Shown: positions 30,671-55,481 of the stretch, piece after piece
Numbering within the stretch: the stretch's first letter is position 1
Layout: every line of letters starts with the position of its first letter
From: Olivibacter sp. SDN3
Lineage (GTDB): Bacteria; Bacteroidota; Bacteroidia; Sphingobacteriales; Sphingobacteriaceae
Length of the DNA stretch: 64,000 nucleotides
Assembly (NCBI RefSeq): GCF_014334135.1
Contig: NZ_CP060497.1
Location: 1,178,001-1,242,000 of the forward strand
Direction: 5' to 3'
Made by a program: the position numbers and the translations under genes
The notes under the pieces: model-generated
What the model was told of the DNA's origin: nothing
The model's input: only the letters and a program-made list of their open reading frames with translations
The model's database searches: none

Positions 30671-30686
30671 AGGTATTTTTATGGCA
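30671..30686 (+). promoter_or_regulatory. Candidate sigma-54 promoter of the efflux operon
   Basis: AGGTATTTTTATGGCA has the invariant GG (30672-30673) and GC (30684-30685) separated by exactly ten bases, as at -24/-12 of sigma-54 promoters. It is about 44 bases downstream of the second palindrome and 55 bases before the ATG at 30740. A neighbouring TGGCAC at 30682 with TTG ten bases on is an alternative, but its spacing is one base short. Confidence 0.5.
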
Positions 30687-30739
30687 CAAGCTTGTAGGCT
30701 AAATAGGTAACCGGAAAAACACCTGGTATTAACACGAAA

Positions 30740-31990
30740 ATGGATAGAGCATTACCAAAAAAGAGATGGACAAATAAGCGGATCGCTACCTTAGTAGGGG
30801 TTGTCGGCATAGGAGCGTTAATTTTTTCAAGTTATTATTTTACTTCTGGAAATTCAAGGCTAAATGTGGATGCGGAGCGAATAACTTTATCAGAAGTTTC
30901 GGAAGGCCCCTTTAGAGAGTTCATTCCTGTAAATGGTATGGTGATGCCGATCAGCACGATTTATCTGGACGCTTCTGAAGGGGGGCGTGTAGAAGAAAGA
31001 TTTGTTGAAGATGGAGCAGTTTTAAAAAAGGGAGATCCTATTATGCGCCTATCGAATACCGATTTAGAATTAAGCTTAGTGAATCAAGAGACTCAGGTGC
31101 TCAATCTATTGACCCAAGCGCAGATTTCAGAAACTCAAGCGCAGCAAGCTTCGATCAGTAACAAAAACAGCTTGGCTACCGCAAATAACGGACTAGTGGA
31201 GGCAAAGCGTGTATACGAGCTCAACAAACATCTTTATGAGCAAAAAGCCATTGGAAAACAGGAATATCAAGAGGCTTTGAATGAGTATAATTATCAGAAA
31301 GAGATGTATGAGTTAACCAAGCAAAATGTGATGCAAGACTCGATCATCAACCGCCGTAATATGGAACAAAGTAAACGTACCTATGGTAGTACAAATACAT
31401 CTCTGGAACTAATGCGACGCAAGGTGGACGATCTCATCGTGAGAGCACCTGTTGACGGTCAGCTGACCGCTTTGGATGCAGAGATCGGTCAAAGCAAAGT
31501 ACCGGGAGACCGTTTCGGCCAGATCGATGTCCTAAGCGGCTTTAAAGTGCGCGCCGATATTGATGAGCATTATATTTCACGTATTTATCCGGATCTAGAT
31601 GGTGAGGTGGTCTTGTCTGGCAAAGCGTATAAATTGAAGATCAGGAAGGTATATACACAAGTATTAAACGGACGTTTTCAGGTGGATATGGAGTTTGAAG
31701 GTGATGTACCAAAAGGTATCCGTCGGGGGCAAACCTTACAGATTCGTCTGGCTTTGAGTGATGAGACAAAAGCAGTCTTACTGCCTAAGGGAGGATTCTA
31801 TCAGCAAACGGGAGGTAATTGGGTATTTAAATTGAGTGCTGACGGAAAGACGGCCTACAGAGCAGATGTTCAATTAGGAAGACAAAACCCCGATTATTAT
31901 GAAGTAATTCAAGGCTTAGAGCCCGGAGAAAAAGTAGTAACTTCAAGTTATGAAACCTATGATAAGGTACAGGAGTTAAACATTAAATAG
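30740..31990 (+). CDS. Periplasmic adaptor of an ABC efflux system (HlyD/MacA-like)
   Basis: Membrane-fusion protein of 416 residues: one N-terminal membrane anchor (about 15-33), a biotinyl-lipoyl-like half-motif with EGGRVEERFVEDGAVLKKGD (about 85-104), a long coiled-coil hairpin (about 118-225), the second lipoyl half (VRAPVDGQL), then beta-barrel and membrane-proximal domains ending at GLEPGEKVVTS. It bridges an inner-membrane ABC transporter and an outer-membrane channel. The ABC ATPase gene follows after 53 bases. No permease or TolC gene lies in the operon, so partners must be encoded elsewhere. Confidence 0.9.
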   Translation: MDRALPKKRWTNKRIATLVGVVGIGALIFSSYYFTSGNSRLNVDAERITLSEVSEGPFREFIPVNGMVMPISTIYLDASEGGRVEERFVEDGAVLKKGDPIMRLSNTDLELSLVNQETQVLNLLTQAQISETQAQQASISNKNSLATANNGLVEAKRVYELNKHLYEQKAIGKQEYQEALNEYNYQKEMYELTKQNVMQDSIINRRNMEQSKRTYGSTNTSLELMRRKVDDLIVRAPVDGQLTALDAEIGQSKVPGDRFGQIDVLSGFKVRADIDEHYISRIYPDLDGEVVLSGKAYKLKIRKVYTQVLNGRFQVDMEFEGDVPKGIRRGQTLQIRLALSDETKAVLLPKGGFYQQTGGNWVFKLSADGKTAYRADVQLGRQNPDYYEVIQGLEPGEKVVTSSYETYDKVQELNIK

Positions 31991-32043
31991 TGATCCTCAT
32001 CGTGCAGTCGATGAGTTATAAATAAAACGCTTAAGCATAAAAA

Positions 32044-32718
32044 ATGATAAAAATAACTGACCTCCAAAAATTCTACCGTACAGAAGAAGTGGAAACGGTA
32101 GCATTGAACAATCTCAGCATTGAGGTTGAAAAAGGGGAATTTGTTGCGGTGATGGGCCCTTCTGGCTGTGGAAAATCAACGTTACTCAACATCGTAGGTC
32201 TCTTGGACGATCTTGATGAGGGTAGCTATCTTTTTAACGACATTGAAGTAGCCAAGTTCAATGAACGTAAACGTTCCGATCTGCGCAAACATAATATTGG
32301 CTTCGTTTTCCAGAGTTTTAATCTCATCGACGAGTTAACCGTTTTTGAGAATATAGAACTGCCTCTCATATATACCAAGGTGCCATCAGCTGAACGAAAA
32401 AAACGTGTAGAAGAAGTATTGGAAAAAGTACAGATCATGCATCGTCGCAATCATTTTCCTCAGCAGTTATCTGGGGGACAGCAGCAGCGTGTAGCGGTAG
32501 CCCGAGCAGTAGTGAACAACCCAAAGCTAATCCTTGCCGATGAGCCTACCGGTAACCTTGACTCCAATAACGGTAACGAGGTTATGCAGTTGTTAACGGA
32601 ACTTAATGAGCAAGGCACGACTATCGTTATGGTGACACACAGCGAGCATGATGCCCGTTATAGCGACCGCATCATCCGCATGCTGGACGGGCAGGTTGTG
32701 ATGAGCACTGTGGGATAG
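32044..32718 (+). CDS. ABC transporter ATP-binding protein, MacB/LolD type
   Basis: A stand-alone nucleotide-binding subunit of 224 residues. Walker A is GPSGCGKST (38-46), the Q-loop is in [16 protein letters not shown], the signature LSGGQQQR lies near 142, Walker B is [13 protein letters not shown] and the switch His is in [14 protein letters not shown]. It belongs to the MacB/LolD/FtsE group, which works with FtsX-type permeases. Two permeases of this type are encoded 23 and 30 kb downstream and carry the same upstream palindromes. Confidence 0.95.
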
Positions 32719-32788
32719 TTTTGTAAAACATTGTTATTTTATGCAACGTTTATTTCCATCTAGCGTCTTATAGATAAACACCAATGAT

Positions 32789-33775
32789 ATGAACAAAACT
32801 TTCCTTTTCTTTATTGCCTTTTGCAGCAGCTGTTTTTTGGCAATAGCCCAAGACTCAGGCACTCCCCATATCAATCAATCGCTTAGCGATGCTAATATCC
32901 GGTCGGTTGACCTGCAAACATCTGGTGGCAGTTTAACCGTTACTGGTGTAGCTGATGGAGAAGCCCGCCTGGAAGTATATGTGAATAGTAACAACGGTAA
33001 TAAGCACTTAAGTAAAGACGAGATTGAAAAGAAGTTAGCTGCTGATTACGATCTGAAGATCAGTTCCAATGGCGGTCAACTAATTGCTCATGCAAAACCT
33101 AAAAGAGGTTTTAAAAACTGGAACAATACCCTCTCGATTTCTTTCAAGGCCTATGTGCCTAAGGCATCTACAGCAACACTGAAGACCAGCGGTGGAAGTT
33201 TAATGCTAGAAGGTATTGAAGGCACCGTGGATGGTGCAACTTCTGGTGGTAGCATTAAGGCAAAAAACCTAAAAAACAACGTAAGCTTAAAAACCAGTGG
33301 CGGCAGTATACTTGCTGAAAACTCCACGGGAGAATTAACCTTGTTAACCTCTGGCGGATCTATCAACTTGAGCGATCTGAAAGGCAAAATAACTGCTAAA
33401 ACCAGTGGAGGGAGTATTCAAGCGGTTGGCATAACAGGAGAACTTATCGCTGGTACATCTGGGGGCAGCATCCATGCCGACCGTATCGACGGCAGTATAG
33501 ATGTTGGCACCAGCGCGGGCAGTGCCACAGTAAATATGCTTACTGTCGATAAATACGTAAAGGTGAATGTTTCCACCGGACAGGTCCAGCTTCAATTACC
33601 GATGGATAAGGGATTAGATCTTAACTTGAGTGCAAGCAGAGTAAACCTACCTAACCTCGGTGACTTCAGTGGTAGCCGCGAAAAAAATCGGGTACAGGGC
33701 AAACTAAATGGTGGTGGTGCCAAGGTAGATGTCGCTGTCAGCATGGGAAATCTGACCTTAAGTGCTTTAAATTAA
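32789..33775 (+). CDS. DUF4097-type beta-strand-repeat protein, exported
   Basis: A 328-residue protein with a signal peptide (about 1-20). From about 45 to 245 it consists of repeats about 18-20 residues long, each with the core TSGGS (eight copies, the last TSAGS), alternating with hydrophobic strands. This suggests a beta-solenoid. Bacteroidetes proteins of this kind fall under DUF4097 and have no assigned enzymatic role. It lies 70 bases after the ABC ATPase and before a terminator, so it is the third gene of the efflux operon. It may be a surface or periplasmic accessory of the exporter or simply co-regulated. Confidence 0.82.
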   Translation: MNKTFLFFIAFCSSCFLAIAQDSGTPHINQSLSDANIRSVDLQTSGGSLTVTGVADGEARLEVYVNSNNGNKHLSKDEIEKKLAADYDLKISSNGGQLIAHAKPKRGFKNWNNTLSISFKAYVPKASTATLKTSGGSLMLEGIEGTVDGATSGGSIKAKNLKNNVSLKTSGGSILAENSTGELTLLTSGGSINLSDLKGKITAKTSGGSIQAVGITGELIAGTSGGSIHADRIDGSIDVGTSAGSATVNMLTVDKYVKVNVSTGQVQLQLPMDKGLDLNLSASRVNLPNLGDFSGSREKNRVQGKLNGGGAKVDVAVSMGNLTLSALN

Positions 33776-33810
33776 CCTTACATAGTAGGTCTCTTCTTTT
33801 TATTTTCAAG

Positions 33811-33839
33811 AACACGGCTATTACAGCCGTGTTTTTTTT
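33811..33839 (+). terminator. Terminator of the efflux operon
   Basis: AACACGGCT at 33811-33819 and AGCCGTGTT at 33825-33833 form a perfect 9-bp stem with a 5-base loop followed by a run of T. It separates the DUF4097 gene from the galactonate-type operon. Confidence 0.9.
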
Positions 33840-33910
33840 CTTCTCTTCATTCCATTGCTTTTCTTCTCAGAAAATTATTATATTCAACGCATAAACCATA
33901 CAACGGACAT

Positions 33911-34552
33911 ATGACTGCCCTTGAGCATTTACTAACCCATCGTTTAATTTGCATTATTCGCGGAAATTTTTCAGAAGAAGCCGTTCTTGCCATTGCCAAA
34001 ACGCTTTATCAAGCGGGTATACGGACATTAGAGATCACACTTAATTCGCCAGGAGCATTGTCCTTTATAGAAAAACTTAGCGACACCTATGAAAACCGCT
34101 TGCTCATCGGTGCAGGAACTGTTTTGAGTAAAAAAAGTGTACAAGAAGCTGTCCATGCAGGAGCACAATTTATGCTGTCGCCAAATGTCGATGTTGGCGT
34201 CATTGAAACCACTAAACAGCTGGGCAAAGCAAGTATTCCGGGAGGTTTTACCGCAACAGAAATTCAATTCGCGCATCACGTTGGCGGAGATATTATCAAG
34301 GTTTTTCCGGCACGGTTAGGCGCTACCTATATCGCTGATATCCAAGCCCCTTTGCCACACATTCCTTTACTACCAACCGGAGGTGTTCACTTACAAAACA
34401 TCGCCGACTTCCATCGTGCCGGTGCTGTAGGTTTTGGAATAGGCAGTTCGCTTGTACCTTCGGACTTCAGCACCACGGACAGCAACCTTCACGAACTCGA
34501 ATTAAAAGCCCGGCAATATACCGATCTTTTGCATAAACTTGGCGCTAAATAA
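33911..34552 (+). CDS. dgoA: KDPG/KDPGal aldolase
   Basis: Class I aldolase cleaving 2-keto-3-deoxy-6-phospho-sugar acids to pyruvate and glyceraldehyde 3-phosphate. The 213 residues show the catalytic Glu in TLEITLNSPGA (about 41), GAGTVLS, FMLSPNVD, the Schiff-base Lys in IIKVFPA (about 130) and LLPTGGVHLQN. Eda and DgoA belong to the same family. The neighbouring sugar-acid importer and DgoK-type kinase favour the galactonate role. The importer gene begins 69 bases downstream. Confidence 0.88.
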   Translation: MTALEHLLTHRLICIIRGNFSEEAVLAIAKTLYQAGIRTLEITLNSPGALSFIEKLSDTYENRLLIGAGTVLSKKSVQEAVHAGAQFMLSPNVDVGVIETTKQLGKASIPGGFTATEIQFAHHVGGDIIKVFPARLGATYIADIQAPLPHIPLLPTGGVHLQNIADFHRAGAVGFGIGSSLVPSDFSTTDSNLHELELKARQYTDLLHKLGAK

Positions 34553-34621
34553 TACCATATTGTGCGCTGCACATATACTGAAGCTTTATGAACCCCGTTA
34601 TGTATAAACAAACCTGAGATT

Positions 34622-35899
34622 ATGACAAAAAATAATGGTAGTGCCAGCCGCATACGTTTTCTTATACTTGCTTTCCTCTTCATCAACGTTGTTATTAATT
34701 ATATGGACCGCAGCAATATTTCGGTAGCTGCACCGATACTGAGCAAGGAGTTAGGGTTCTCTACTGTTGAATTGGGATTAATTTTCTCTGCTTTTGGATG
34801 GAGTTATACCTTACTCCAGATACCCGGTGGATTATTGGTTGATCGCTTTGGACCACGCATGCTTTATACCTTCTCCTTGATCAGCTGGTCTGTTGCGACC
34901 TTATTACAGGGCTTTACCAGAACTTTTCAGGTATTGTTCAGTTTACGCTTATTAACTGGGGCCTTTGAAGCACCTGCCTACCCGATTAACAACCGTATTG
35001 CAACCTCTTGGTTTCCAAACCATGAACGTGCCACGGCTATAGGCATTTATACTTCGGGACAATTTATTGGCTTAGCCTTTCTAACGCCTTTACTCATGGC
35101 TGTTCAACACCTGGCCGGATGGAGGGGGCTCTTTTTTATAACCGGCGCTGTAGGCATTATCTGGGGTGTCTTATGGTATGTCCTGTACCGTGACCCTCAA
35201 AAACATCCATTAGCTAATGACGCCGAACGCGCTTATATCCAAGATGGCGGCGGGCTCATAAATACGGCCAATACCGCTAAAAAAAAGTTCCGGAGAACAG
35301 ACTTTATACAAGTGCTCTCAAGTCGAAAATTATGGGGTATATATTTGGGCCAATTTGCCGTTAATGCAACTTTATGGTTCTTTCTCACGTGGTTCCCCAG
35401 CTATCTGGTCACTTTTAGAGGGCTTGATTTTTTATCATCCGGCTATCTTGCCTCAGCTCCTTTCCTAGCCGCTTTCATCGGAGTTGTCTGCGCCGGATTT
35501 TTCTCAGATTTGCTCATAAGAAAAGGTTATTCTATTGACATAGCAAGAAAGACACCTGTTATTGTTGGGCTCCTATTATCTACACTTATTATCGGTGCAA
35601 ATTTCGTGGACAGCACCTTCTTTGTTATTTTATTTCTCGCATTGGCCTTTTTTGGCAATGGCTTAGCTTCAATCACCTGGGTTTTTGTATCTACATTAGC
35701 ACCTAAAGACTTAATCGGTTTAACGGGAGGCGTATTTAATTTTATTGGAGCAACAGCTTCTATTATCGTTCCACTTGTTATCGGATATTTGGTGCGGGAT
35801 GGAAACTTTGAACCTGCATTAACCTTCGTTGCGGCAATGGCTTTGCTTGGAGCGCTCTCTTATATTTTTTTAGTAGGACGTATAAAAGCAACAGCATGA
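34622..35899 (+). CDS. dgoT: MFS sugar-acid transporter (ACS family, galactonate/hexuronate type)
   Basis: Twelve-helix major-facilitator importer of 425 residues. The family block NYMDRSNISVAAP lies at the end of helix 1 (about 23-35), with LLQIPGGLLVDRFGPR (about 61-76) between helices 2 and 3. The sequence matches the anion:cation symporter family, which takes up galactonate, glucarate or hexuronates with protons. Placement between aldolase and kinase genes points to galactonate. Its stop overlaps the start of the kinase by four bases (ATGA). The gene symbol is by analogy. Confidence 0.82.
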   Translation: MTKNNGSASRIRFLILAFLFINVVINYMDRSNISVAAPILSKELGFSTVELGLIFSAFGWSYTLLQIPGGLLVDRFGPRMLYTFSLISWSVATLLQGFTRTFQVLFSLRLLTGAFEAPAYPINNRIATSWFPNHERATAIGIYTSGQFIGLAFLTPLLMAVQHLAGWRGLFFITGAVGIIWGVLWYVLYRDPQKHPLANDAERAYIQDGGGLINTANTAKKKFRRTDFIQVLSSRKLWGIYLGQFAVNATLWFFLTWFPSYLVTFRGLDFLSSGYLASAPFLAAFIGVVCAGFFSDLLIRKGYSIDIARKTPVIVGLLLSTLIIGANFVDSTFFVILFLALAFFGNGLASITWVFVSTLAPKDLIGLTGGVFNFIGATASIIVPLVIGYLVRDGNFEPALTFVAAMALLGALSYIFLVGRIKATA

Positions 35900-36870
35900 G
35901 CAAAAAGATACTATTTATTAGTTGTGATTGGGGCACCACCAACTTCCGATTAAGGGTCATAGGAACCGAAGACCTGGAGGTTTTAGGCGAAGAGGCCTCA
36001 GATTGGGGTATTCAACGAATCAATATCCAGTGGAAAAAAACGTCAAAATCAGAAAAAAACCGTGAAAAGTTCTTTTGTGATGTATTAATTAAACACTTGG
36101 ATGCGCTGTCAAAAAAACTAAAGCTTGCACTTTATGATGTGCCTATCCTCGTATCAGGTATGGCTTCTGCTAATATTGGATTTAAGCCTATTGATTATAA
36201 ACCGCTTCCTTTCAATATGAATGGAAGCAATTTACTGATCGATCATTTCTCCTATGGTCAACTGAAAGGTTTAGTTATTTCGGGCGTATGTACAGACACT
36301 GACGTTATACGTGGAGAGGAAACACAATTGATGGGAGCTTTTGACACCTTAACCAACAGAGATGGCTTCCATTGCTTCATCATTCCGGGCACCCATTCGA
36401 AGCATATTTTCGTAGAACAGCAAGAGGCCATATCTTTTAAAACGTATCTGACCGGAGAATTTTTTGAACTTTTATCCACTAAAAGTATCCTGCAGCATTC
36501 GCTCAAAACAGCCGAGACCTTTAAACACCTTTCCCATCAATCAAGCTTTCAAAAAGGTGTAAAGCATGGCCTGCATCGCAATTTTCTCCATGAAGTTTTC
36601 CAGGTGCGCACAGCAGACATCTTTCAAAAACACACAAAAGAGGAGAATTATTTTTATCTAAGTGGTCTTGTAATCGGCACCGAATTAAAAGATTTACTGC
36701 AAGTACAACCGTCATGCCAATACCATTTAGTTACTTCTTCAGCATTAGCTCCGTATTATGGATTGGCACTTCAGGAACTAAACATTACTTACACCTTACA
36801 CCATTCGGAGAAAGCCTTAATCAAAGGGCATTACCAAATGTATCAACAATATTATCAAAACTCGTTCTAA
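35896..36870 (+). CDS. dgoK: 2-keto-3-deoxygalactonate kinase (DgoK family)
   Basis: ATP-dependent phosphorylation of 2-keto-3-deoxygalactonate before aldol cleavage. The 324-residue protein begins with the phosphate-1 motif FISCDWGTTNFRLRVI (about 6-21) and has VSGMASANIGF, the Arg/Glu block VIRGEETQLMGA (about 135-146) and IPGTHSKHI, all family features. Translation is coupled to the transporter by a four-base overlap. No dehydratase or dehydrogenase of the pathway lies beside it. Confidence 0.85.
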   Translation: MSKKILFISCDWGTTNFRLRVIGTEDLEVLGEEASDWGIQRINIQWKKTSKSEKNREKFFCDVLIKHLDALSKKLKLALYDVPILVSGMASANIGFKPIDYKPLPFNMNGSNLLIDHFSYGQLKGLVISGVCTDTDVIRGEETQLMGAFDTLTNRDGFHCFIIPGTHSKHIFVEQQEAISFKTYLTGEFFELLSTKSILQHSLKTAETFKHLSHQSSFQKGVKHGLHRNFLHEVFQVRTADIFQKHTKEENYFYLSGLVIGTELKDLLQVQPSCQYHLVTSSALAPYYGLALQELNITYTLHHSEKALIKGHYQMYQQYYQNSF

Positions 36871-36927
36871 ATAAAGATTTCTTGATAAATCTATTTTTTT
36901 GCTTGCTATTATGCTTTTAATAAGCCC

Positions 36928-36935
36928 TATCTTTG
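36928..36935 (+). promoter_or_regulatory. Possible -7 element for cydAB
   Basis: TATCTTTG fits TAnnTTTG and lies 40 bases before the cydA ATG. A TTG at 36903-36905 is 22 bases upstream, one base more than usual. Confidence 0.45.
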
Positions 36936-36974
36936 CCATAATTACTTCTTTTTACTCTTAAAAGAAAAGTCGAT

Positions 36975-38309
36975 ATGGACGATTTCTTAGCCGCTCGCTC
37001 ACAAATGGCCCTTTCCCTAGGCTTTCACATTATTTTTGCCTGTATTGGTATGGTCATGCCGTTCTTCATGGCTATTGCTCATTATAAGTGGTTAAAAACT
37101 AGCGAGCCTGTTTATAAGAATGTCACCAAAGCCTGGAGTAAGGGGGTTGCTATCTTTTTTGCAACCGGAGCGGTATCTGGCACCGTATTGTCTTTTGAAT
37201 TAGGGCTGCTTTGGCCAACTTTCATGGAGCATGCCGGTCCTATATTTGGCATGCCCTTTTCCTTAGAGGGCACAGCATTTTTTATCGAGGCAATTGCCTT
37301 AGGTTTTTTCTTATATGGTTGGGATAAGTTTAATCCCTGGTTTCATTGGTTTACCGGTGTAGTAGTGGGTATAAGCGGTTTAGCTTCCGGTATATTGGTG
37401 GTATCTGCCAACGCATGGATGAACAGTCCGGCAGGATTTGATTACATTAATGGGCAATATCTTAATATAGATCCAATCAAAGCCATGTTTAACGGTGCTT
37501 GGTTTTCACAGGCACTTCATATGACTATCGCGGCTTTTGTAGCTACCGGCTTTGCCGTCGCCGGCGTACACGCGCTCATGATATTAAAAGGTAAGCATAT
37601 CTTATTCCATCAGAAAGCCTTTCGGATTGCTGCCATCTTTGCGACCATTGCGGCAGTTCTTCAACCATTGAGTGGAGATATTTCCGCTAAGGATGTGGCA
37701 AAAAGGCAACCAGCTAAACTAGCTGCTATGGAAGCACATTTTCACACAGAACGTAATGCGCCTTTGATTGTTGGCGGATTGGTTAACGCACAAACCGCTG
37801 AGGTAAAATATGCGGTTAAAATCCCTGGCTTGCTCAGTTGGATGGCGCATGGCGATAGTGATGCAGAAGTGATCGGTTTAGATCGTATTCCGAAGGAACA
37901 TCACCCCCCAATTGCCATTACCCATTATTCCTTTCAAGTAATGGTGGGTTTAGGTATGCTGATGATGGCATTATCCATCATCTATTTTATCGCCTTATGG
38001 AGGCAGAAAAACTGGCTTAAAAGCAGATGGTTATTACACCTTTTTGTTGCGACAATTCCTTTGGGTTTTATCGCTATTGAGGCTGGATGGATGGTCACAG
38101 AAATCGGAAGGCAACCCTGGATTATTAACGGTATTATGCTTACGGTCGATGCGGTAACACCCATGCCAGGTATAGTCTATTCCTTTTATCTGTTTACCAT
38201 GGTTTATATTTCTTTATCGTGTATTGTGGTTTTTTTATTGTATCGGCAGATAAAAATGGTAGGTAAACTATACGATGTTACCGAAGACAAAACACCTCAT
38301 AAATACTAG
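36975..38309 (+). CDS. cydA: Cytochrome bd oxidase subunit I
   Basis: Quinol-oxidising, haem-bearing subunit of the high-affinity terminal oxidase. The 444-residue membrane protein opens MDDFLAARSQMALSLGFHIIFA with the haem b595-type His near residue 19. It has RNAPLIVGG in the periplasmic region and the signature EIGRQPW (about 375-381). The quinol-binding loop is short, as in the non-E. coli-type CydA group. cydB follows after five bases. No cydX or cydCD genes are in the window. Confidence 0.95.
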   Translation: MDDFLAARSQMALSLGFHIIFACIGMVMPFFMAIAHYKWLKTSEPVYKNVTKAWSKGVAIFFATGAVSGTVLSFELGLLWPTFMEHAGPIFGMPFSLEGTAFFIEAIALGFFLYGWDKFNPWFHWFTGVVVGISGLASGILVVSANAWMNSPAGFDYINGQYLNIDPIKAMFNGAWFSQALHMTIAAFVATGFAVAGVHALMILKGKHILFHQKAFRIAAIFATIAAVLQPLSGDISAKDVAKRQPAKLAAMEAHFHTERNAPLIVGGLVNAQTAEVKYAVKIPGLLSWMAHGDSDAEVIGLDRIPKEHHPPIAITHYSFQVMVGLGMLMMALSIIYFIALWRQKNWLKSRWLLHLFVATIPLGFIAIEAGWMVTEIGRQPWIINGIMLTVDAVTPMPGIVYSFYLFTMVYISLSCIVVFLLYRQIKMVGKLYDVTEDKTPHKY

Positions 38310-38314
38310 AAAAA

Positions 38315-39334
38315 ATGCTATATGTAGTAATTGCTTTTCTATGGGCTTCCATCTGGCTTTATCTTCTTTTGGGTGGAGCAGATTTCGGTGCCGGTGTCAT
38401 TGAGTTGGTTACCAACCGTGAAAACCGCACCAAGACCCGATCTACCATGTATCGTGCCATAGGCCCGATTTGGGAGGCCAACCATATGTGGTTGATCATT
38501 GCTATTGTTATTCTATTTGTTGGCTTTCCGAAGATTTACACAACCATGTCTGTTTTTGTGCATATACCGTTAACCGCTATGCTGCTCGGCATCATTGCCC
38601 GCGGAACCGCCTTTGTCTTTCGTAATTACGACGCTGTTGACGATCATATGCAGAACATCTATAATAGGATATTTGTATACTCCAGTGCTATAACTCCCTT
38701 TTTCTTAGGCATCATAGCTGCGAGCACGGTCAGCGGACAAATTGATCCGAATGCAGGCGACTTTCTTTCAGCCTACCTGTACAGTTGGTTGAATAGCTTC
38801 GGTTTGTCTGTAGGTCTCTTCACGGTATGTATTTGTGGTTTTTTGGCAGCTATTTACATCATTGGAGAAGTGAATACTGTGGCCGATAGACAACATTTTA
38901 TCCGTATGTCAAAAAGGATGATTATTGCCGCCTTCTTTTCTGGCGGACTTGTTTTTGCCGCTGCGCAATATGAGGGGATCCCCTTAGTAGAATGGATTTT
39001 TGGTCAATGGGTAGGAAGTATTGCCATTGCGTTAGCGAGTATCTCTTTGCTAGCACTTTGGTTTTCTCTAGACAAAAATAGACCTGTCCTTATCCGGCTA
39101 CTAGCTGGATTTCAAATAAGTATGATTTTATTAGCGGCAACTTATGTACATTTTCCGAATATCGTCTTGCTAAAAGACGATACAGCACTATCCTTATTGG
39201 ATGATGCTGGATTGGATAAAACTATTGAAGCCCTGGCTTGGGCGTTGATGATAGGCAGTGTTTTTATTTTACCGTCACTTTTTTATTTGATTTATAGTTT
39301 CGAAAGGAGGAAAAACCCTGAAGAAATTGCCTGA
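38315..39334 (+). CDS. cydB: Cytochrome bd oxidase subunit II
   Basis: Second subunit of the bd oxidase with 339 residues and about nine membrane helices. Family blocks are LYLLLGGADFGAGVIEL (about 16-32), the RAIGPIWEANHMWLI element (about 47-61) with the conserved Trp-Glu, and FPNIVL near the C terminus. It begins five bases after cydA and ends before a convergent receptor gene. No terminator is obvious in the 64 bases between them. Confidence 0.95.
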   Translation: MLYVVIAFLWASIWLYLLLGGADFGAGVIELVTNRENRTKTRSTMYRAIGPIWEANHMWLIIAIVILFVGFPKIYTTMSVFVHIPLTAMLLGIIARGTAFVFRNYDAVDDHMQNIYNRIFVYSSAITPFFLGIIAASTVSGQIDPNAGDFLSAYLYSWLNSFGLSVGLFTVCICGFLAAIYIIGEVNTVADRQHFIRMSKRMIIAAFFSGGLVFAAAQYEGIPLVEWIFGQWVGSIAIALASISLLALWFSLDKNRPVLIRLLAGFQISMILLAATYVHFPNIVLLKDDTALSLLDDAGLDKTIEALAWALMIGSVFILPSLFYLIYSFERRKNPEEIA

Positions 39335-39398
39335 AGAAATAATAAAGGCCATCAGCATTTCACTGACGACCGTAAAATTAGTATTATCTAAAGACGTT

Positions 39399-41780: not shown

Positions 41781-41815
41781 TTTATTTAGAATAATTCTTA
41801 TTAAACAGTTTCGCA

Positions 41816-44538: not shown

Positions 44539-44643
44539 TGTACCACCCTCCTATATTTATTAATTCTTAATTCATTAACGAATTACCGAAGATAACTGTT
44601 TAACAAATCATTATTCTAAGCGTGATGTCATTTTCAATCCATG

Positions 44644-45690: not shown

Positions 45691-45896
45691 TGATAACTTT
45701 TTATTGGTTTCCTTCAAACCTAATCTATTTTTTTGAATTTCTTTAAACGATCATAAAACAAATGTCTTAAAAATCAGTTCTAATTTTATACAAGCTCCTC
45801 ATCATAAATGAAGAGCGGTTGTTTTTCTGTCATCTTATCTTGAGGGGCAGACTTTCTGAACAGAAACCAATAAAATTAGTAATAAATCACCAAAAA

Positions 45897-48565: not shown

Positions 48566-48583
48566 ATACCTTTCTGGCATACC

Positions 48584-48805
48584 TCAATCATTATTAAACG
48601 TGAGCAAGTAAAGGTCTTCTACTTTTTTCCTAGCCCAGGGAGTCCTTCTTAGAAAGGTCAAGCTCGACTTCACTGTCGGATTATTGGCAAAACAATTGAG
48701 GCGTAAAATCTGAGCCAACTCTTTCCATCCATAATGTTCATAGAGTTGTATTACAATCTTTTCTAAGGTTATGCCATGTAAAGGATTATTTGGCTGTGTG
48801 TTCAT
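48584..48805 (-). CDS. VF530-like small protein (DUF2132)
   Basis: A 73-residue soluble helical protein. The sequence [21 protein letters not shown] (about 7-27, split only for position), [25 protein letters not shown] and VEDLY matches the short family called VF530 or DUF2132, for which a DNA-binding role has been suggested from structure. Its function in cells is unknown. It converges with the hydroxylase gene and is 30 bases downstream of the dehydrogenase gene on the same strand. Confidence 0.85.
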
Positions 48806-48835
48806 CAGGTATCCGTGTAATAATTGTTTAGTAGT

Positions 48836-49693
48836 TTAACTTCGCTCCAAGTATTTAATAATGGCCATCACATCCTCATCGCCCAACCCATCATCGAGGG
48901 CCTGCTTATAGGTGTCTGCCAAAGGGCCTGCCAAAGGAAAACTAATCCCCTGTTCCCGTGCCAAGCGTAGGTCCTTTGCCATATGCTTAAGTGCAAAGGC
49001 TGTGGGATATTCGTTCGATGCGATAGTGGGCGTTTTTAGCTTAGTGATCGCACTGCCGCAGGCACCTTCATTTACTATACGCAGCATATCTTCCGCATTT
49101 ATGCCTTGCTGTTTAGCGAAAAGCACTGTTTCTGCCAATCCCTGCAAGGTCAATGCCAGGAAGTAATTGATAGCCAGTTTGGCCGAAGAACCCGCCCCTA
49201 CCGATCCGAGATGAACAGCCATTTTTCCCAACTTCTCAAAAATCGGCTGAGCCGCACGAAAGTCATCTGCCGTCCCACCTACCAAAATGAGTAGTGTTCC
49301 ATCTTCTGCAGGCTTTACACTTCCGGAAACAGGAGCCTCCAAAAAACGGGCACCCACCGCTTCACTCATTTCCTGAAGCTCGGCCGAAGTACGAGGCGAA
49401 ACGGTGCTCATGTTAATAAAAAGCTTACCGCCGACCTTGCCGTTTAACAATCCTCCTTCACCTAAATAAGCCCCTTTTACCGCCTGATCGTCTGACAACA
49501 TAGTAAATATGATGTCACTTTCCTCACATAACACGGGTATACTTTCTGCTAAAACTGCGCCCTCATTAACCAAAGCATCTGCTTTCGAAGAGGTTCTATT
49601 GTACACATAAAGCGAATATCCTCCTTTTAGAAGATTGTTGGCCATAGGGAAACCCATTTTCCCAAGGCCGATCCATCCTATTTTGTTAGACAT
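48836..49693 (-). CDS. NAD(P)-dependent beta-hydroxyacid dehydrogenase family protein
   Basis: A 285-residue member of the 3-hydroxyisobutyrate/tartronate-semialdehyde/glyoxylate reductase family. It has the Rossmann start IGWIGLGKMGFPMANNLL, the substrate block FLEAPVSGSVKPAEDGTL (about 115-132), and the catalytic Lys in GSSAKLAINYF (about 171). In the Rossmann region YNRT follows the second strand, where an Arg favours NADP. It could be a succinic-semialdehyde or glyoxylate reductase; no neighbour settles the choice. Confidence 0.88.
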   Translation of the reverse strand: MSNKIGWIGLGKMGFPMANNLLKGGYSLYVYNRTSSKADALVNEGAVLAESIPVLCEESDIIFTMLSDDQAVKGAYLGEGGLLNGKVGGKLFINMSTVSPRTSAELQEMSEAVGARFLEAPVSGSVKPAEDGTLLILVGGTADDFRAAQPIFEKLGKMAVHLGSVGAGSSAKLAINYFLALTLQGLAETVLFAKQQGINAEDMLRIVNEGACGSAITKLKTPTIASNEYPTAFALKHMAKDLRLAREQGISFPLAGPLADTYKQALDDGLGDEDVMAIIKYLERS

Positions 49694-49790
49694 GATGTGT
49701 TGGCTTAGTAAATAATATATAATCTATCCTTAACAAGCGGTATTTAAAAATGTTTATGGATCATTTCCCGGCAAACTATGATCAGTCGAT

Positions 49791-51020
49791 CTACACTTCG
49801 CAGCTCATGTTATTGCAGTCGATCAACACGTTTTCTTCATCAATTATCGTATTGGAAGAAACCAGGGAAGCCCTGCCAACGGCCCTTTTCCTATTAAAAA
49901 TAAACGCAAAAATCGCCCCGACGAAGGCCATCGCAGCTCCAACAATAGCAGGCCAGGTATAATCAAAGTGAAATACCAAAGGGAGCCCTCCCAAAAAGGC
50001 ACCTAGCGCGTTGCCAATATTGAAGCTCGCCTGGCTAACAGAAGCAGCAATCATTTCAGCGCCTTTGGCTGTATTAATCATCAGCATTTGTATAGGCGCA
50101 GCCAACGCAAAAGCCACAGCTCCCGTAACAAAAGTCATGATCAATGCCATAGTAGGATCGAAAGAGACAAAATGCACGACAATCAATGTTGCTGTCATCA
50201 TCAACAGCAAGGCCACAGAGGCCTTTCCCGGCGAAAATCTATCTGCGAGGTAACCTCCTATTAAATTTCCCACCATCATACCAACACCGGCTAAGATAAG
50301 TATATAGGTTACCGATTCTTCCGCAAAACCCGCTATGGAAGTCATCATAGGAGCAATATAGCTGTACCAGCAAAACAATCCACCGGTACCAATAGAAATC
50401 ATCAGGATAATCAGCCAGGCTTCGGTCTTTTTAAAAAAGCCAAGTTCATTCTTTAAATTACGTTCTTTATTTGCAGATAGCGCCGGAAGCAGGGCCTTCA
50501 AACTAAATATCGTAATCAATCCAACAAATACCACAATAGCGAAAGAAAAACGCCAAGAGAAATGATGTCCGATATAAGTTCCAAGAGGCACACCTGCTAT
50601 ATTTGCAATGGTGAGTCCTAAAAACATCAGCGAAACCGCCTGAGCTTCTTTACCTGGTTTTGCGATCTTACTGGCAACTACTGACCCTACACCAAAAAAT
50701 GCGCCGTGAGGTAATCCGGATAGTAGGCGAGCAATAAACAACGAGTTAAAATCCGGCGCAAAGGCTGAAAATGCATTGAATACGGTAAACATCACCATTA
50801 ATGCAATCAGAATATTTTTAGGCGGATATTTACCGGCAATAGCTACCAATAATGGCGCTCCTATTACGACGCCCAAGGCATAAGCAGAAATCAAATAACC
50901 TGCCTGCGGAATAGAAACCACTAGATCCCGCGCTATATCAGGCAGTAGTCCCATCATTACGAACTCGGTAACCCCTATTCCTAAGCCACCTAATGTTAGT
51001 GGAAGTAGTTTTTTATCCAT
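49791..51020 (-). CDS. MFS transporter, AraJ/YdhP-like drug or sugar efflux type
   Basis: A 409-residue protein with twelve membrane segments. The N-terminal GIGVTEFVMMGLLPDIARDL (about 15-34, split only for position) and the YALGVVIGAPLL segment match the DHA1-type efflux group of AraJ, YdhP and PbuE. The C terminus ends with a soluble tail of about 30 residues. Export of drugs, purines or arabinose-like sugars is possible and cannot be resolved. The gene is divergent from the aminotransferase gene. Confidence 0.88.
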   Translation of the reverse strand: MDKKLLPLTLGGLGIGVTEFVMMGLLPDIARDLVVSIPQAGYLISAYALGVVIGAPLLVAIAGKYPPKNILIALMVMFTVFNAFSAFAPDFNSLFIARLLSGLPHGAFFGVGSVVASKIAKPGKEAQAVSLMFLGLTIANIAGVPLGTYIGHHFSWRFSFAIVVFVGLITIFSLKALLPALSANKERNLKNELGFFKKTEAWLIILMISIGTGGLFCWYSYIAPMMTSIAGFAEESVTYILILAGVGMMVGNLIGGYLADRFSPGKASVALLLMMTATLIVVHFVSFDPTMALIMTFVTGAVAFALAAPIQMLMINTAKGAEMIAASVSQASFNIGNALGAFLGGLPLVFHFDYTWPAIVGAAMAFVGAIFAFIFNRKRAVGRASLVSSNTIIDEENVLIDCNNMSCEV

Positions 51021-51404
51021 ATGTTGCTTAGTGTTTTATATACACTATGCAAAAATAGTTGTTTAATTTTCAAAATTGATACGCTTAATATAATTATTTT
51101 CTTGCTTGACGCATCTTTACACAGGGTAAACAATTCTCGGTATACCCAGTTTACCGGGTTTTATTTTAATGATCTCCCACTGACGTTTGTACTCATGAAA
51201 TCAAATATATTCCCTTTATAAAAGATCCCTTAGTGGCAGAGGAGAAACTGATAAAAAGCGTAGCTTTCATGAACACCTTTAACGTAAATACCAGTAATTA
51301 CTTTTTTCACAACCGTTCTTTTCGATTACGTTCAAGCTAGCTTTGCCGATATGTGCAAACCAATTATATTGCATATAAAAGCAAATTTATCTAAGTTTGA
51401 AAAT
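51021..51404. other. Divergent region between the MFS exporter and aminotransferase genes
   Basis: This 384-base stretch is AT-rich and carries no credible gene. TATTTTTG on the minus strand (51057-51050) may be the -7 element of the exporter gene. TAGCTTTG (51338-51345) and a full promoter (51369-51399) face the aminotransferase gene. A segment near 51210-51259 resembles one at 15734-15783. Confidence 0.5.
51369..51399 (+). promoter_or_regulatory. Promoter of the class V aminotransferase gene, apparently leaderless
   Basis: TTG at 51369-51371, a 20-base spacer and TAAGTTTG at 51392-51399 match the Bacteroidetes consensus. The ATG at 51405 follows six bases later, so the transcript would begin at or next to the start codon. 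A second -7-like TAGCTTTG at 51338-51345 could give a longer leader. Confidence 0.6.
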
Positions 51405-52478
51405 ATGCAACTACACGAGCAATACCCCCCATTAAATAATAGCACCTATCTTAACACACCAACCTCAGGTCTTTTATCGAAAGATATTTTAACGTGGCGA
51501 AGACAACATGATGAGGATTTTTTTCGTAGGGGGTATTTCTTTAGAGATAATTTTGACGGCTTCTTGTACGGTGTGAAAGAAACATTGGCCAACTTCTTTC
51601 AGGCAGATGCTTCGAATACGTTTCTGATACCGAATTTTTCTTTTGGTTTTAATACGCTGTTGGAAGGGTTGTCAAAAGAGGAACGGTTTCTACTGTTACA
51701 GGAAGACTATCCTTCGGTAAACTATCCCGTGGAGAGCAGGGGCTTCACCTGTACACATGTTGCCGTAAGTGAGCACCTCGAACAAGACATTCTTGCACAA
51801 ATTGAAACATTTAAACCAACGGTATTCGCTTTTAGCCTGGTACAATATATTAGTGGAATTGCTATTGATTTAACATTTATCAAGCAATTGAAGGAAACCT
51901 ATCCAGAGCTTTTACTGATAGCCGATGGCACACAATTTTGTGGCACACGGAAATTTGATTTCAGTGCTTCCGGATTAGATGTCCTAGCTGGCAGCGGTTA
52001 CAAATGGATGATGGCAGGCTATGGCAGCGGGTTTATCTTTCTAAAAGCAGCTCTTCTAGAGCGACTATATACGCAAGCACAAAAACATCCTAAACCAATG
52101 GCTCCTTTCCTGAAAGATAAGGGCTTACTGACGCTTCTCTTTGAACCTGGGCATCAAGACACTCTCATTTACGGCACCCTACAGCAAGCTGTTTTGGCGT
52201 TTGAGCGGATAGGGATGCGGGATATTGAACAACATATAAGCTCGCTGGCAGAACAGGCAAAAATTGCCTTTACGGAACGGGGCCTTCTTACCAACGCTGT
52301 CATCAAACGAGAGACACACTCTTCTATATTCAATCTCTCCATTGATGAAACTACTTATCAACGGTTACAGCAAGCCAATATTGTCTGTGTACGCCGGGGG
52401 AGAGGCGTAAGGATAGGGTTCCATTTCTTTAATACAACAGAAGATCTAGCAAAAGCATTAGCGGCCATTGACTATTGA
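51405..52478 (+). CDS. Aminotransferase class V family protein
   Basis: PLP-dependent enzyme of 357 residues, related to the cysteine desulfurase/isopenicillin-N-epimerase group. Blocks are YLNTPTSGLL at the N terminus, the cofactor Asp and nearby residues in LIADGTQFCG (about 178-187), and the Schiff-base Lys in AGSGYKWMMAGYGSGF (about 204). The small domain ends VRRGRGVRIGFHFFNT, with the conserved Arg. The in-frame ATG at 51351 adds 18 residues but is upstream of the best promoter. The substrate is unknown. No SufE or Fe-S genes adjoin it, so a desulfurase role is not supported. Confidence 0.85.
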   Translation: MQLHEQYPPLNNSTYLNTPTSGLLSKDILTWRRQHDEDFFRRGYFFRDNFDGFLYGVKETLANFFQADASNTFLIPNFSFGFNTLLEGLSKEERFLLLQEDYPSVNYPVESRGFTCTHVAVSEHLEQDILAQIETFKPTVFAFSLVQYISGIAIDLTFIKQLKETYPELLLIADGTQFCGTRKFDFSASGLDVLAGSGYKWMMAGYGSGFIFLKAALLERLYTQAQKHPKPMAPFLKDKGLLTLLFEPGHQDTLIYGTLQQAVLAFERIGMRDIEQHISSLAEQAKIAFTERGLLTNAVIKRETHSSIFNLSIDETTYQRLQQANIVCVRRGRGVRIGFHFFNTTEDLAKALAAIDY

Positions 52479-52539
52479 TGTTATCTAACGCGCTCCCCTT
52501 TATATCAATATAAAACTCGTCTTCTCCCTTTCTTAAAGC

Positions 52540-52612
52540 TTTACCATCGATAGAGATCGATGCCTCATCATCATGGTAAACAGATATTTTTAGAAACAAT
52601 TGAAAAATTGTT
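52540..52612 (+). terminator. Hairpins after the aminotransferase gene
   Basis: TTTACCAT (52540-52547) pairs with ATGGTAAA (52573-52580), and AACAATT (52595-52601) pairs with AATTGTT (52606-52612). They lie within the 231-base gap 52479-52709. Neither is followed by a strong T run, so termination is uncertain. TATGTTTG at 52643-52650 may be the -7 element of the next gene. Confidence 0.35.
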
Positions 52613-52709
52613 AAACGGCTTTCTTATCTGCAAAAAATAAATTATGTTTGACCGAGGTAAATGGCGAACCACACATCATTACTTGACTTATAGATGGGGA
52701 TAGGCTTTC

Positions 52710-53981
52710 ATGAAAAACAGCGAATGTCGTAAAAAAGAAGACCTTGTGTGCTTCTCAGTTTATCGTGCTCTATTTGTTTTAATTATCATGTTACCTCTTT
52801 GCAGCTACGGCCAGAGACCGGGATATGAATTAGAGCCATCAAGATCCAAAGCAGACACGACGAGGCAGCGTGATCTCATCGATATTGGGAAAGATATTCT
52901 TAACATCAAGCCCCCGAAGGGGCCGGACAGTAGCGGTAAATCCATTTATTTCTCTTTTCTACCTTTTTCCACCAACGTTCCCGGTGGCGGACATGCGTTG
53001 ATCACATCGACCACGGCCGGGTTTTTCACCGGTAACCGGGAAACCACTTATATGTCGAGAGCTTCGTTTACGCCCTACACAAATTTTAGGGGTCGTTTCG
53101 GTTTACCTATTCGTTCTTATATCTGGTTAAAGAACAATGAGTGGGTTATCATGGGTGATACACGTTTACTGAAATATCCTCAATTTACCTGGGGCCTGGG
53201 CAGGCAACACGAGGAAGACGACAAACTACTCGTTGATTATACGTATATGCGCTTCTACCAGCATGCCTTACGGAAGGTTTGCGATGGTATGTTTGCCGGT
53301 ATAGGGTATAATCTCGATTATCGGGTAAATATAGATACGAAAGAAGCGGGGTTATCCCTTGGAGAATATACCGATTATGCATATGGTACAGACCATTTTG
53401 GCAGAAGTCTGTCTTCGGGTTTAAGCTTCAATTTATTGTATGATACCCGTTCAAACTCCATCAACCCTATGGACGGTTATTATGCGTACTTTCAATACCG
53501 CGTGAATCCTACGTTTCTAGGAAGTGATCATACCTGGCAGTCCATTTATGTAGACATTCGTAAATATATCCGTTTTACCGATGATCCTAACCGTCAGAAT
53601 ATGTTAGGTATCTGGACAAACTATTGGTCGGTATTAAACAGAAGAGTTCCCTATCTTGACCTCCCCAGTATAGGGTGGGACGTTTACAATCGTTCTGGAA
53701 GAGGCTTTGACCAAAACCGTTATCGCGGTCGTCATTTAATGTATTTAGAGGCTGAGTATAGGCGAGATATCACAGCCAATGGCTTATTCGGATTTGTAGT
53801 CTTTACCAATGCGAACTCTGTTGCCGGACCAGACAGCCAATTATTTAAGGATTGGAATCACGCCGTGGGTGCGGGCCTCCGTCTGAAGTTCAATAAAGGA
53901 TCGGGAACGAATATTGCGATTGACTTTGGAAAAAGTAGAGGTTTCTCCGGTTTCCAAATAGGCTTGGATGAAGTGTTTTAA
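52710..53981 (+). CDS. BamA/TamA-family outer-membrane protein (surface antigen D15-like barrel)
   Basis: A 423-residue protein with a signal peptide (about 1-35, ending YGQ) and then essentially one barrel domain. No POTRA domains are present. The sequence shows alternating aromatic strands, the GLSFNLLYDTRSNSINPMDGYYAYFQYRV segment typical of Omp85 barrels (seen near residues 240-268), and YRGRHLMYLEAEYRRDI near the C terminus, equivalent to the conserved (V/I)RGF/Y region. It ends SGFQIGLDEVF, a plausible beta-signal. This matches POTRA-less Omp85 relatives common in Bacteroidetes. Role unknown. Confidence 0.8.
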   Translation: MKNSECRKKEDLVCFSVYRALFVLIIMLPLCSYGQRPGYELEPSRSKADTTRQRDLIDIGKDILNIKPPKGPDSSGKSIYFSFLPFSTNVPGGGHALITSTTAGFFTGNRETTYMSRASFTPYTNFRGRFGLPIRSYIWLKNNEWVIMGDTRLLKYPQFTWGLGRQHEEDDKLLVDYTYMRFYQHALRKVCDGMFAGIGYNLDYRVNIDTKEAGLSLGEYTDYAYGTDHFGRSLSSGLSFNLLYDTRSNSINPMDGYYAYFQYRVNPTFLGSDHTWQSIYVDIRKYIRFTDDPNRQNMLGIWTNYWSVLNRRVPYLDLPSIGWDVYNRSGRGFDQNRYRGRHLMYLEAEYRRDITANGLFGFVVFTNANSVAGPDSQLFKDWNHAVGAGLRLKFNKGSGTNIAIDFGKSRGFSGFQIGLDEVF

Positions 53982-54046
53982 TATGCTTTTTACTTTATGC
54001 TTTCTTTTGTCTATATTGCACATAAATACGCTTTCAATAATTTTTT

Positions 54047-54262
54047 ATGGATAAAAAGGTATACAATCGTATCAAAGCTGTATTAGCAGAACAGGGCAAA
54101 ACCAATAAATGGCTGGCAGAAACACTGGACCGGAACATCAATACGGTTTCCAAATGGAGTACAAACAAAATGCAGCCCACAGTAGAGTCTTTGTTTGAAA
54201 TAGCTGAAGCACTACAGGTGGACGTACGCAGTTTATTAATTTCAACAAAAGGGGGAATCTAA
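54047..54262 (+). CDS. XRE-family helix-turn-helix regulator
   Basis: A 71-residue DNA-binding protein. The five-helix Cro/CI-type HTH spans about 5-65: IKAVLAEQGKTNKWLAETLDRNINTVSKW (about 6-34, recognition helix near NTVSKW) and ESLFEIAEALQVDVRSLL. It is followed after two bases by the DUF2027 gene, so the two are translated together. Targets are unknown. Confidence 0.88.
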   Translation: MDKKVYNRIKAVLAEQGKTNKWLAETLDRNINTVSKWSTNKMQPTVESLFEIAEALQVDVRSLLISTKGGI

Positions 54263-54264
54263 GC

Positions 54265-54921
54265 GTGAATTATAAACTAGGCGATTTTGTACGTTTTGTT
54301 GAGGAAGATTTTGAAGGGCATATTACGAAGATAATCAACGACGAGTTGGTTGCTGTAACTGGCGAGGATGGGTTTGAAATACCCGTTCAGGCATCAAAAA
54401 TCACGAAAGTTTATGGTCAGCAAAATCGAGAAGATATAGCCTTCGATGAGAAAGACAAGAAACCTGTAGTACAAGCAGGTCCTTTTGTTACTGAAGGCAT
54501 TTATTTAGCTATTACCGGCGATCAGAAACAGAACACGGGATTCTTTCATTTGGTAAATGAAACGTCTTATGATCTTTTAGTAAGTTTTAACACAGAAAAA
54601 GCGAAGCAAGTCGTAGGTGAATACGCCGGTATACTTAGGCCCAGAAGCACACAAAAAATTTATACCGTTAAAATTAGTGAAATAAGCGGGTGGCCTCTGT
54701 TTGCCTTTCAGTTTTTGTTCCATGCGGCACAGCTACAGCCGCCCAAAGGGCCTTTGGAAATTGCGAGGCGCATCAAACCATTTGACCTATCGGATTCAAA
54801 AAAACATGTACCATTGTTGAATGAGCGCGCCTGGCTCTTTCGCTTAGATGAAGATGGGACAAAAATTGATGCAGCTAAACTAAAAGAAAGTTTTTTTAGC
54901 CATCGCCCCGACAAAAAATGA
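54265..54921 (+). CDS. DUF2027-type protein lacking the Smr domain
   Basis: A 218-residue protein starting with GTG at 54265, preceded by the G-rich AAAAGGGGG at 54247-54255. The N-terminal 50 residues (KLGDFVRFVEEDFEGHITKI, then VTGEDGFEIPV) match the small beta-barrel at the start of Bacteroidetes DUF2027/Smr proteins. The middle (about 75-195) resembles the DUF2027 domain (GFFHLVNETSYDLLVSF). Relatives usually continue into a C-terminal Smr nuclease-like domain, which is missing here. The closeness to the XRE gene suggests joint function, possibly with nucleic acid, but this is inference. Confidence 0.6.
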   Translation: MNYKLGDFVRFVEEDFEGHITKIINDELVAVTGEDGFEIPVQASKITKVYGQQNREDIAFDEKDKKPVVQAGPFVTEGIYLAITGDQKQNTGFFHLVNETSYDLLVSFNTEKAKQVVGEYAGILRPRSTQKIYTVKISEISGWPLFAFQFLFHAAQLQPPKGPLEIARRIKPFDLSDSKKHVPLLNERAWLFRLDEDGTKIDAAKLKESFFSHRPDKK

Positions 54922-54961
54922 GCTCAATGGCATATCGCTCTTCCTTAAAGTGTCATATAAC

Positions 54962-55369
54962 ATGATAAATTATCAGATAGAAAAAGAATTAAGTTTAGGC
55001 GAATTCCGACAGCTCCTCCTGCGCTCTACTTTGGGAGAACGACGTCCAATTGATGATCTCGACCGTTTAATTCAGATGCTGGAACATGCTAACCTGATCG
55101 TTACCGCACGGGATGAAGACAAGTTAATCGGAATCGCCCGTTCCCTAACAGATTTTGCCTACTGCACTTATTTAGCTGACTTAGCCGTGCACGAAGGTTA
55201 TCAACGTCAGGGAATTGGTAAAGAGTTAATCAAGCAAACTAAGTTAGCTGCTCCTCAGGCAAAACTCATCTTGCTTTCCGCTCCCAAAGCCATAAACTAT
55301 TACCCTAAAATCGGTATGACCAAACATAGTTACTGTTATTTTTTAGATAACCTTACTGATTTAACATAA
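54962..55369 (+). CDS. GNAT family N-acetyltransferase
   Basis: An acetyl-CoA-dependent acyltransferase of 135 residues from ATG 54962 (a GTG at 54950 is possible). The fold signature is clear: strand 4 YLADLAVHEGYQRQGIGKELI (about 76-96) contains the Q/R-x-x-G-x-G/A pyrophosphate loop QRQGIGKEL, followed by LILLSAPKAINYYPKIGM. The acceptor is unknown. Its stop lies just four bases before the first palindrome of the downstream permease gene. Confidence 0.88.
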   Translation: MINYQIEKELSLGEFRQLLLRSTLGERRPIDDLDRLIQMLEHANLIVTARDEDKLIGIARSLTDFAYCTYLADLAVHEGYQRQGIGKELIKQTKLAAPQAKLILLSAPKAINYYPKIGMTKHSYCYFLDNLTDLT

Positions 55370-55373
55370 CTCA

Positions 55374-55410
55374 TGTACGTATGTGTACGCGGAGTGTCCG
55401 TTTCCGTACA
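55374..55410. promoter_or_regulatory. Tandem palindromes upstream of the first FtsX-type permease
   Basis: TGTCCGTTTCCGTACA at 55395-55410 is a full TGTnCG-N4-CGnACA site. TGTACGTATGTGTACG at 55374-55389 keeps the left half exactly and part of the right half. Their centres are 21 bp apart, as in the pair before the efflux adaptor gene at 30592-30628. Confidence 0.65.
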
Positions 55411-55465
55411 GTCTTGCTCTCACACAAAACAAGCAACATGCTGATTTACAGCAAAAAACAAAAGA

Positions 55466-55481
55466 AGGCCTAATTTTGGCG
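55466..55481 (+). promoter_or_regulatory. Candidate sigma-54 promoter of the first FtsX-type permease
   Basis: AGGCCTAATTTTGGCG has GG (55467-55468) and GC (55479-55480) separated by exactly ten bases. Distance to the ATG (54 bases) is almost the same as for the candidate before 30740 (55 bases). The overlapping inverted repeat TTTTGGC-GAG-GCCAAAA (55474-55490) complicates reading. Confidence 0.45.

Follow-up and report, generated by a model that had tools for sequence, protein, structure and literature searches.

How the exporter genes of Olivibacter sp. SDN3 are switched on is the question raised by a stretch of 64,000 nucleotides from contig NZ_CP060497.1 (positions 1,178,001 to 1,242,000 of the forward strand), the whole of which is referred to here as the window and provides the coordinates used unless a genome position is given. 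Three genes are concerned, starting at 30740 (gene 1), 55534 (gene 2) and 62081 (gene 3), and an earlier note on this DNA had proposed promoters of sigma-54 type for the first two of them, in the form of the GG-N10-GC strings AGGTATTTTTATGGCA (30671-30686) and AGGCCTAATTTTGGCG (55466-55481). Our analysis indicates that all three genes very probably belong to one sigma-54 regulon, in which each would be served by a pair of enhancers, a sigma-54 promoter and the NtrC-type activator encoded in the window itself (29081-30424). The sigma-54 idea of the earlier note is very probably right and has gained a blind motif search, a near-fixed enhancer distance, held-out genomes, an RpoN gene and an adjoining NtrC-type activator in its favour; one of its two named promoter elements is misplaced.

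The putative enhancers are palindromes of the form TGTnCG-N4-CGnACA, which are paired 21 bp apart upstream of all three genes. Exact copies begin at 30592, 30613, 55395 and 61986, all read on the forward strand: gene 1 has two of them (TGTACGCAAGCGCACA, 30592-30607, and 21 bp after it TGTCCGATATCGAACA, 30613-30628), and genes 2 and 3 each exhibit an exact second palindrome (TGTCCGTTTCCGTACA, 55395-55410, and TGTTCGATTTCGAACA, 61986-62001, respectively) with a degenerate partner of two mismatches 21 bp upstream (TGTACGTATGTGTACG, 55374-55389, and TGATCAAAAACGTACA, 61965-61980). When one mismatch was allowed, four palindromes were reached in 2 of 100 shuffles, and across the 6.12-Mb genome 20 exact palindromes were found compared with 4 for a reversed control pattern. 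The spacing is likewise far from arbitrary: for 290 unique oriented palindrome sites from six genomes, counted after removal of double-counted sites, a partner with at most two mismatches was found at 20, 21 and 22 bp in 9, 83 and 20 cases (112 together), against 4 in total for the remaining spacings between 14 and 31 bp. Two palindrome sites of genome G007 and the regulator-adjacent sites of G001, G004, G002 and G022 were left out of the motif sets or handled apart.

The promoter motif was sought blindly by expectation-maximisation in the 134 bases after palindrome 2, using a training set of 64 promoters from six genomes from which the rows of the window were excluded and in which each palindrome pair is followed by an open reading frame (ORF) with an FtsX-permease-like N-terminus, as recognised by a loose pattern. 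The best motif was TTTTGGCA-N6-TTG with a log-likelihood of 273, against 58-64 in five shuffled sets, and its best match puts the TGG 66-71 bases past the start of palindrome 2 (the offset used from here on) in 58 of the 64 promoters. The spacing typical of sigma-54, GG-N10-G, was present with its GG at offset 67-72 in 55/64 promoters, compared with 0-5/64 at 13 other places of equal width; in 57 related promoters scoring >5 bits, the distance from palindrome to TGG has a 10-90% range of only 68-71. From the TGG at 66-71 bases past palindrome 2 it follows that the enhancers are centred at approximately -87 and -108. This arrangement was also found in genomes held out from training: in rows facing an ORF the best match fell at 66-71 in 13/21 cases for G003, 4/4 for G022 and 7/13 for G011 (24/38 together), against 0/11, 1/6 and 2/7 (3/24) in rows on the side without an ORF. 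Two further G003 rows have their best match at offset 72, and several of the held-out misses are the back side of a pair facing an unrelated ORF, as judged by the N-termini. The earlier note had supposed that the sigma-54 promoters of Bacteroidetes may be looser than the classical ones. This applies to the base after the -12 TTG but not to the -24 side, where TTTGGC is sharply kept: in 58 promoters of the training genomes the following base is T in 24, A in 17, C in 9 and G in 8, and since C follows the G in only 9/58 these genomes depart from the classical GC at -12, although the classical TTGC was found in several promoters of the held-out genus G011. A bending site between enhancer and promoter was also considered, but the signal for TGATWA (7/64 against 2.1 ± 1.5 in shuffles) is too weak to support one.

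Within the window, the quality of the promoter elements (all on the forward strand) differs from gene to gene, with the sigma-54 spacing of TGGC, GG-N10-G and TTG exact for gene 3, weak for gene 2 and one base short for gene 1. The best of the three belongs to gene 3, for which the earlier note had seen only weak candidates: TGGCAATAAACTTGTG at 62054-62069, which begins with TGGCAATAAACTTGT at 62054, lies at offset 68 with canonical spacing and scores 11.0 bits, and the relatives of gene 3 at loci L116 and L150 carry TGGCAATAAAGTTG. Transcription would be predicted to start at approximately 62080, about one base before the ATG at 62081, so that the mRNA of gene 3 would be nearly leaderless. 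In case of gene 1, the element is TGGCACAAGCTTGTA at 30682-30696 (offset 69, 6.6 bits, predicted start at approximately 30708), which is identical in two same-genus orthologs. The gene 2 element, AGGCCTAATTTTGGCG at 55466-55481 (offset 71, predicted start at approximately 55492), is the least certain, because it scores 5.1 bits where the median training promoter scores 13.1 bits; three relatives of gene 2 have better elements (TGGCGATATTCTTGG, TGGATATATAATTGG and TGGCGCTGTAATTGG). The form TGGCAC-N4-TTG seen at 30682-30696, one base below the canonical sigma-54 spacing, is shared with loci L073, L074, L081, L092 and L229, and such short-spaced promoters stand divergent from or near the regulator in several species.

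The same arrangement recurs throughout the genome. We examined 30 upstream regions, comprising 27 loci with MacB_PCD matches together with those of the adaptor, an OEP channel and a predicted acyltransferase; further MacB_PCD genes, at genome positions 3459748, 1526667, 1273237 and 3243448, lie outside these regions. The palindrome pair, with at most 4 mismatches in all, was present in 18 of the 30 regions, which gives at least 18 units: 15 with a lead permease gene, plus the adaptor operon, the gene of an outer-membrane channel and that of a predicted acyltransferase. Of the 17 units that could be scored, 16 have their best motif match at 66-71; nine of the 17 were part of the training set, and all eight others fit, including the three genes of the window. 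The outer-membrane channel gene (OEP, genome position 1306606), whose listed start is too near for scoring, has a TGGC at offset 69 when read by eye. The 12 regions without the pair include permeases that closely follow another permease, shorter genes of 416-449 codons and L054, for which the stretch examined falls inside a gene. The predicted acyltransferase gene (AAT, genome position 2489249; L016:1595-1750) has the pair and a modest promoter match of 6.7 bits at offset 68, and no permease was found beside it.

Gene 1 has a two-component system as its neighbour, encoded on the reverse strand: a histidine kinase with PAS and HATPase_c domains (27762-29081) and an NtrC-type response regulator (29081-30424), which we propose as the activator. 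The regulator possesses every domain expected of this role, namely receiver, sigma-54 AAA+ and Fis-type helix-turn-helix (HTH) domains (Response_reg, Sigma54_activat, HTH_8). Its loop reads GAFTDA rather than GAFTGA, and the aspartate (D222) does not vary in an alignment of 20 relatives; GAFTDA is among the loop variants considered in PMC4641369 to retain activity. The genome encodes one RpoN, with a PF04552 match of 190 bits that exceeds the cut-off. In 80 named loci, a kinase homologue accompanies the regulator at a distance of no more than about 3 kb in 78 cases, the adaptor in 44 and the ATPase in 39. Genomes of the same family have regulator loci whose 15-mers are all shared with Solitalea longa, Arcticibacter svalbardensis and a Mucilaginibacter MAG, which makes Sphingobacteriaceae the probable family. 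Taken together, these components suggest a mechanism in which the kinase, probably membrane-bound to judge from its hydrophobic N-terminus, would sense a signal and phosphorylate the regulator with which its gene is paired; the regulator would then bind the two 16-bp palindromes, whose separation of 21 bp corresponds to two helical turns. Sigma-54 RNA polymerase would occupy TTTGGCA-N6-TTG, a site whose geometry is seen directly in the sequences, and the AAA+ ring of the activator would open the promoter through ATP hydrolysis, as is established for this family. The regulon so controlled would consist of the at least 18 pair-bearing units, with the elements at 30682 (gene 1), 55466 (gene 2, weak) and 62054 (gene 3) as its entries in the window.

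Several observations weigh against this reading. The TTG of gene 1 is one base nearer than canonical, a spacing that as a rule serves sigma-54 poorly, though relatives keep it; the element of gene 2 is not only weak but overlaps a TAnnTTTG match; and the L045 unit lacks a convincing promoter element. In the training set, two of the 64 rows turned out not to be permeases and one has a wrong start, and the training counts are not independent because the promoters share ancestry. At the level of genomes, 11 of the 21 that bear the regulator have fewer than seven exact palindromes; among these is G037, where the control pattern outnumbers the palindromes (22 against 5). Finally, the genome encodes five strong sigma-54 activators (PF00158), the window regulator being one of them, which leaves a choice as to which one binds, and the same-genus genome G003 lacks the regulator while carrying 20 palindromes along with promoters that fit.

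The last two points are those on which an alternative could be built, in which the sigma-54 promoters and enhancers are real but are served by another of the five activators, or by several, the window regulator being a mere neighbour. We consider this improbable, since enrichment in palindromes tends to go with the regulator: the regulator is present at ≥50% identity in 21 of 60 genomes, and at least seven exact palindromes, a threshold chosen after the counts were seen, occur in 10 of these 21 against 1 of the 39 without it. Furthermore, of 100 relative loci, a set with shared ancestry that includes the window and a few duplicates, 45 have a likely palindrome pair (at most 5 mismatches in all) upstream of the regulator; TGGC[AG] is found there at offsets 68-70 (17 loci), 79-81 (16) or elsewhere (11). 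The step of 11 bp between the two main classes amounts to a single turn of the helix, which would suit an activator that has to be oriented towards the polymerase. The offsets of approximately 69 and 80 are those seen in L213-L292 and their relatives. As for G003, no other genome combines many palindromes with the lack of the regulator, and the gap in G003 (L348:4689-5602) resembles a deletion: the orthologs of kinase, regulator, adaptor and ATPase are jointly missing, most neighbouring genes on both sides keep the order of the window, the left neighbour at the junction aligns only from residue 38, and at the other edge there is a 213-residue permease fragment matching the C-terminus of a permease. 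Because both flanking genes are truncated within an otherwise conserved order, the gap suggests a recent deletion or a misassembly rather than another activator. The LiaG-like gene that follows the ATPase in the window (32789-33775) follows two permease genes in G003 instead. On location and co-occurrence, the window regulator (29081-30424) is thus the likely activator.

Two other explanations would dispense with more of the proposal. One holds that the palindromes bind a classical repressor or activator, that the genes use housekeeping Bacteroidetes promoters (TTG / TAnnTTTG) and that TGGC is the site of another factor. It can draw on TAATTTTG at 55471-55478 on the forward strand, a TAnnTTTG match before gene 2 that the earlier note had overlooked in stating that neither of its genes has one, as well as on excesses of TAnnTTTG (8/64 promoters against 4.3 ± 2.0 in shuffles) and of a looser two-part pattern (2/64 against 0.5 ± 0.8). 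However, the full housekeeping pattern TTG-N17-20-TAnnTTTG was found in 0/64 promoters, and the motif that emerged from the blind search has the GG-N10-G spacing of sigma-54 and a near-fixed distance to the palindrome pair, which makes this explanation very unlikely. The other takes the elements of the earlier note as they stand, with gene 1 read from AGGTATTTTTATGGCA and GG-N10-GC as the rule. Both strings do exist, each downstream of a palindrome pair, and AGGTATTTTTATGGCA scores 4.5 bits, second best in the gene 1 region; the gene 2 string even lies in the expected place, weak though it is. Yet GG-N10-GC is common, with 314 matches on both strands of the window, and near chance in the stretches from palindrome 2 to start codon (P 0.12 for gene 1 and 0.09 for gene 2 in shuffles of these), and it was found at the expected place in only 10/64 promoters, where GG-N10-G was found in 55/64; as a rule it was rejected. 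The same applies to AGGTATTTTTATGGCA as promoter of gene 1: its offset of 58 is outside 66-71 and 11 bases short of the element at 69, and its GG (30672-30673) is CC in two same-genus orthologs in which TGGCAC is kept. That the two start codons follow at almost equal distances (55 and 54 bases), a point on which the earlier note had relied, says little and was set aside as evidence, the 10-90% range from TGG to ATG being 40-205 (median 77) in the same 57 related promoters. We regard this last explanation as the least credible of all, and the reading of one sigma-54 regulon under the window regulator as the one to retain.

With respect to what this regulon would control, the window genes are probably exporters of the MacAB or DarBCD type, all encoded on the forward strand. 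Gene 1 (30740-31990) encodes, by similarity, an HlyD/DarC-like periplasmic adaptor and is followed by a LolD/DarD-like ATP-binding cassette (ABC) ATPase (32044-32718), which is 95-96% identical in two same-genus genomes. Gene 2 (55534-57978) encodes an ADOP-like permease with two MacB_PCD and two FtsX stretches, indicating an internal duplication, and no ATPase was found beside it. Gene 3 (62081-64000) encodes a MacB_PCD/FtsX permease and runs past the end of the window, the open frame in the genome comprising 811 codons. Just upstream of gene 3, a protein with an AraC-type HTH and TPR repeats is encoded (59898-61943).

A possible, if rather doubtful, extension is that the adaptor (30740), the ATPase (32044) and the co-induced outer-membrane channel serve in common the duplicated permeases that have no ATPase next to them. 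Under the enhancer pair, this genome was found to have 15 lead permease units against a single adaptor and a single channel, and of eight places in the genome that match the window ATPase at E 1e-30 or better, two lie within 20 kb of lead permeases, namely that of the window and that at 1303330; a regular expression for the ABC signature proved a weak tool here, because it matched only at 32466 and missed the ATPase at 1303330. This second ATPase is 53% identical to that of the window and sits in a permease cluster, so that the export engine need not be unique. Among L213-L243 and L283, 18 loci have both proteins, with the ATPase 78-86% and the adaptor 54-68% identical to those of the window, which is mild support at most, since it is common for the ATPase to be better conserved. 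A permease stands immediately after the ATPase of the window type in two genomes of the same genus. If the sharing were true, the regulon would name the missing partners of the orphan permeases, and the cell would swap export specificities on one chassis.

The bare link between sigma-54 and FtsX-like permeases is already in print: PMC12316311 (2025) predicts that COG0577 and the FtsX-like permease family are under sigma-54 control, with an enrichment in several classes including Bacteroidia, and describes this as the first such evidence. The excerpted text of that paper gives no activator, enhancer, geometry or regulon for these permeases, and the window regulator with its GAFTDA loop would drop out of the analysis described there, because the activator filter kept only GAFTGA. 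Among the literature matches listed, no title or abstract dealt with this activator, enhancer pair or regulon. What our reading would add is a common switch for dispersed transporter paralogs of Bacteroidota, with an explicit activator, enhancer and promoter grammar usable for annotating other genomes, and, for orphan duplicated permeases, a concrete proposal as to their missing ATPase and adaptor.

The mechanism of control is otherwise of a well-known kind. The window regulator resembles AtoC, ZraR, GlrR and NtrC in domain order, and in this family too paired enhancers lie upstream of a -24/-12 promoter; the NCBIfam models of AtoC, ZraR and GlrR match nearly the whole protein, which stays under the curated cut-off for all 25 models among the matches listed. 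It differs from these regulators in its GAFTDA loop and in having dispersed, duplicated permeases as its putative targets. A duplicated permease domain without an adjacent ATPase is the feature of ADOP (TIGR03434), to which gene 2 has a match of 319 bits (E 6e-95), below the family cut-off of 622.3: it shares the internal duplication and the lack of an ATPase found beside it, but differs in belonging to Bacteroidota. The adaptor, the ATPase and the permease resemble DarC, DarD and DarB, respectively, all scoring below the cut-offs (170 against 450, 304 against 375 and 133 against 700). Comparison with DarBCD and MacAB-TolC reveals that here the outer-membrane channel gene shares the control elements and that, unlike in those systems, there are many permeases per adaptor, scattered over the genome.

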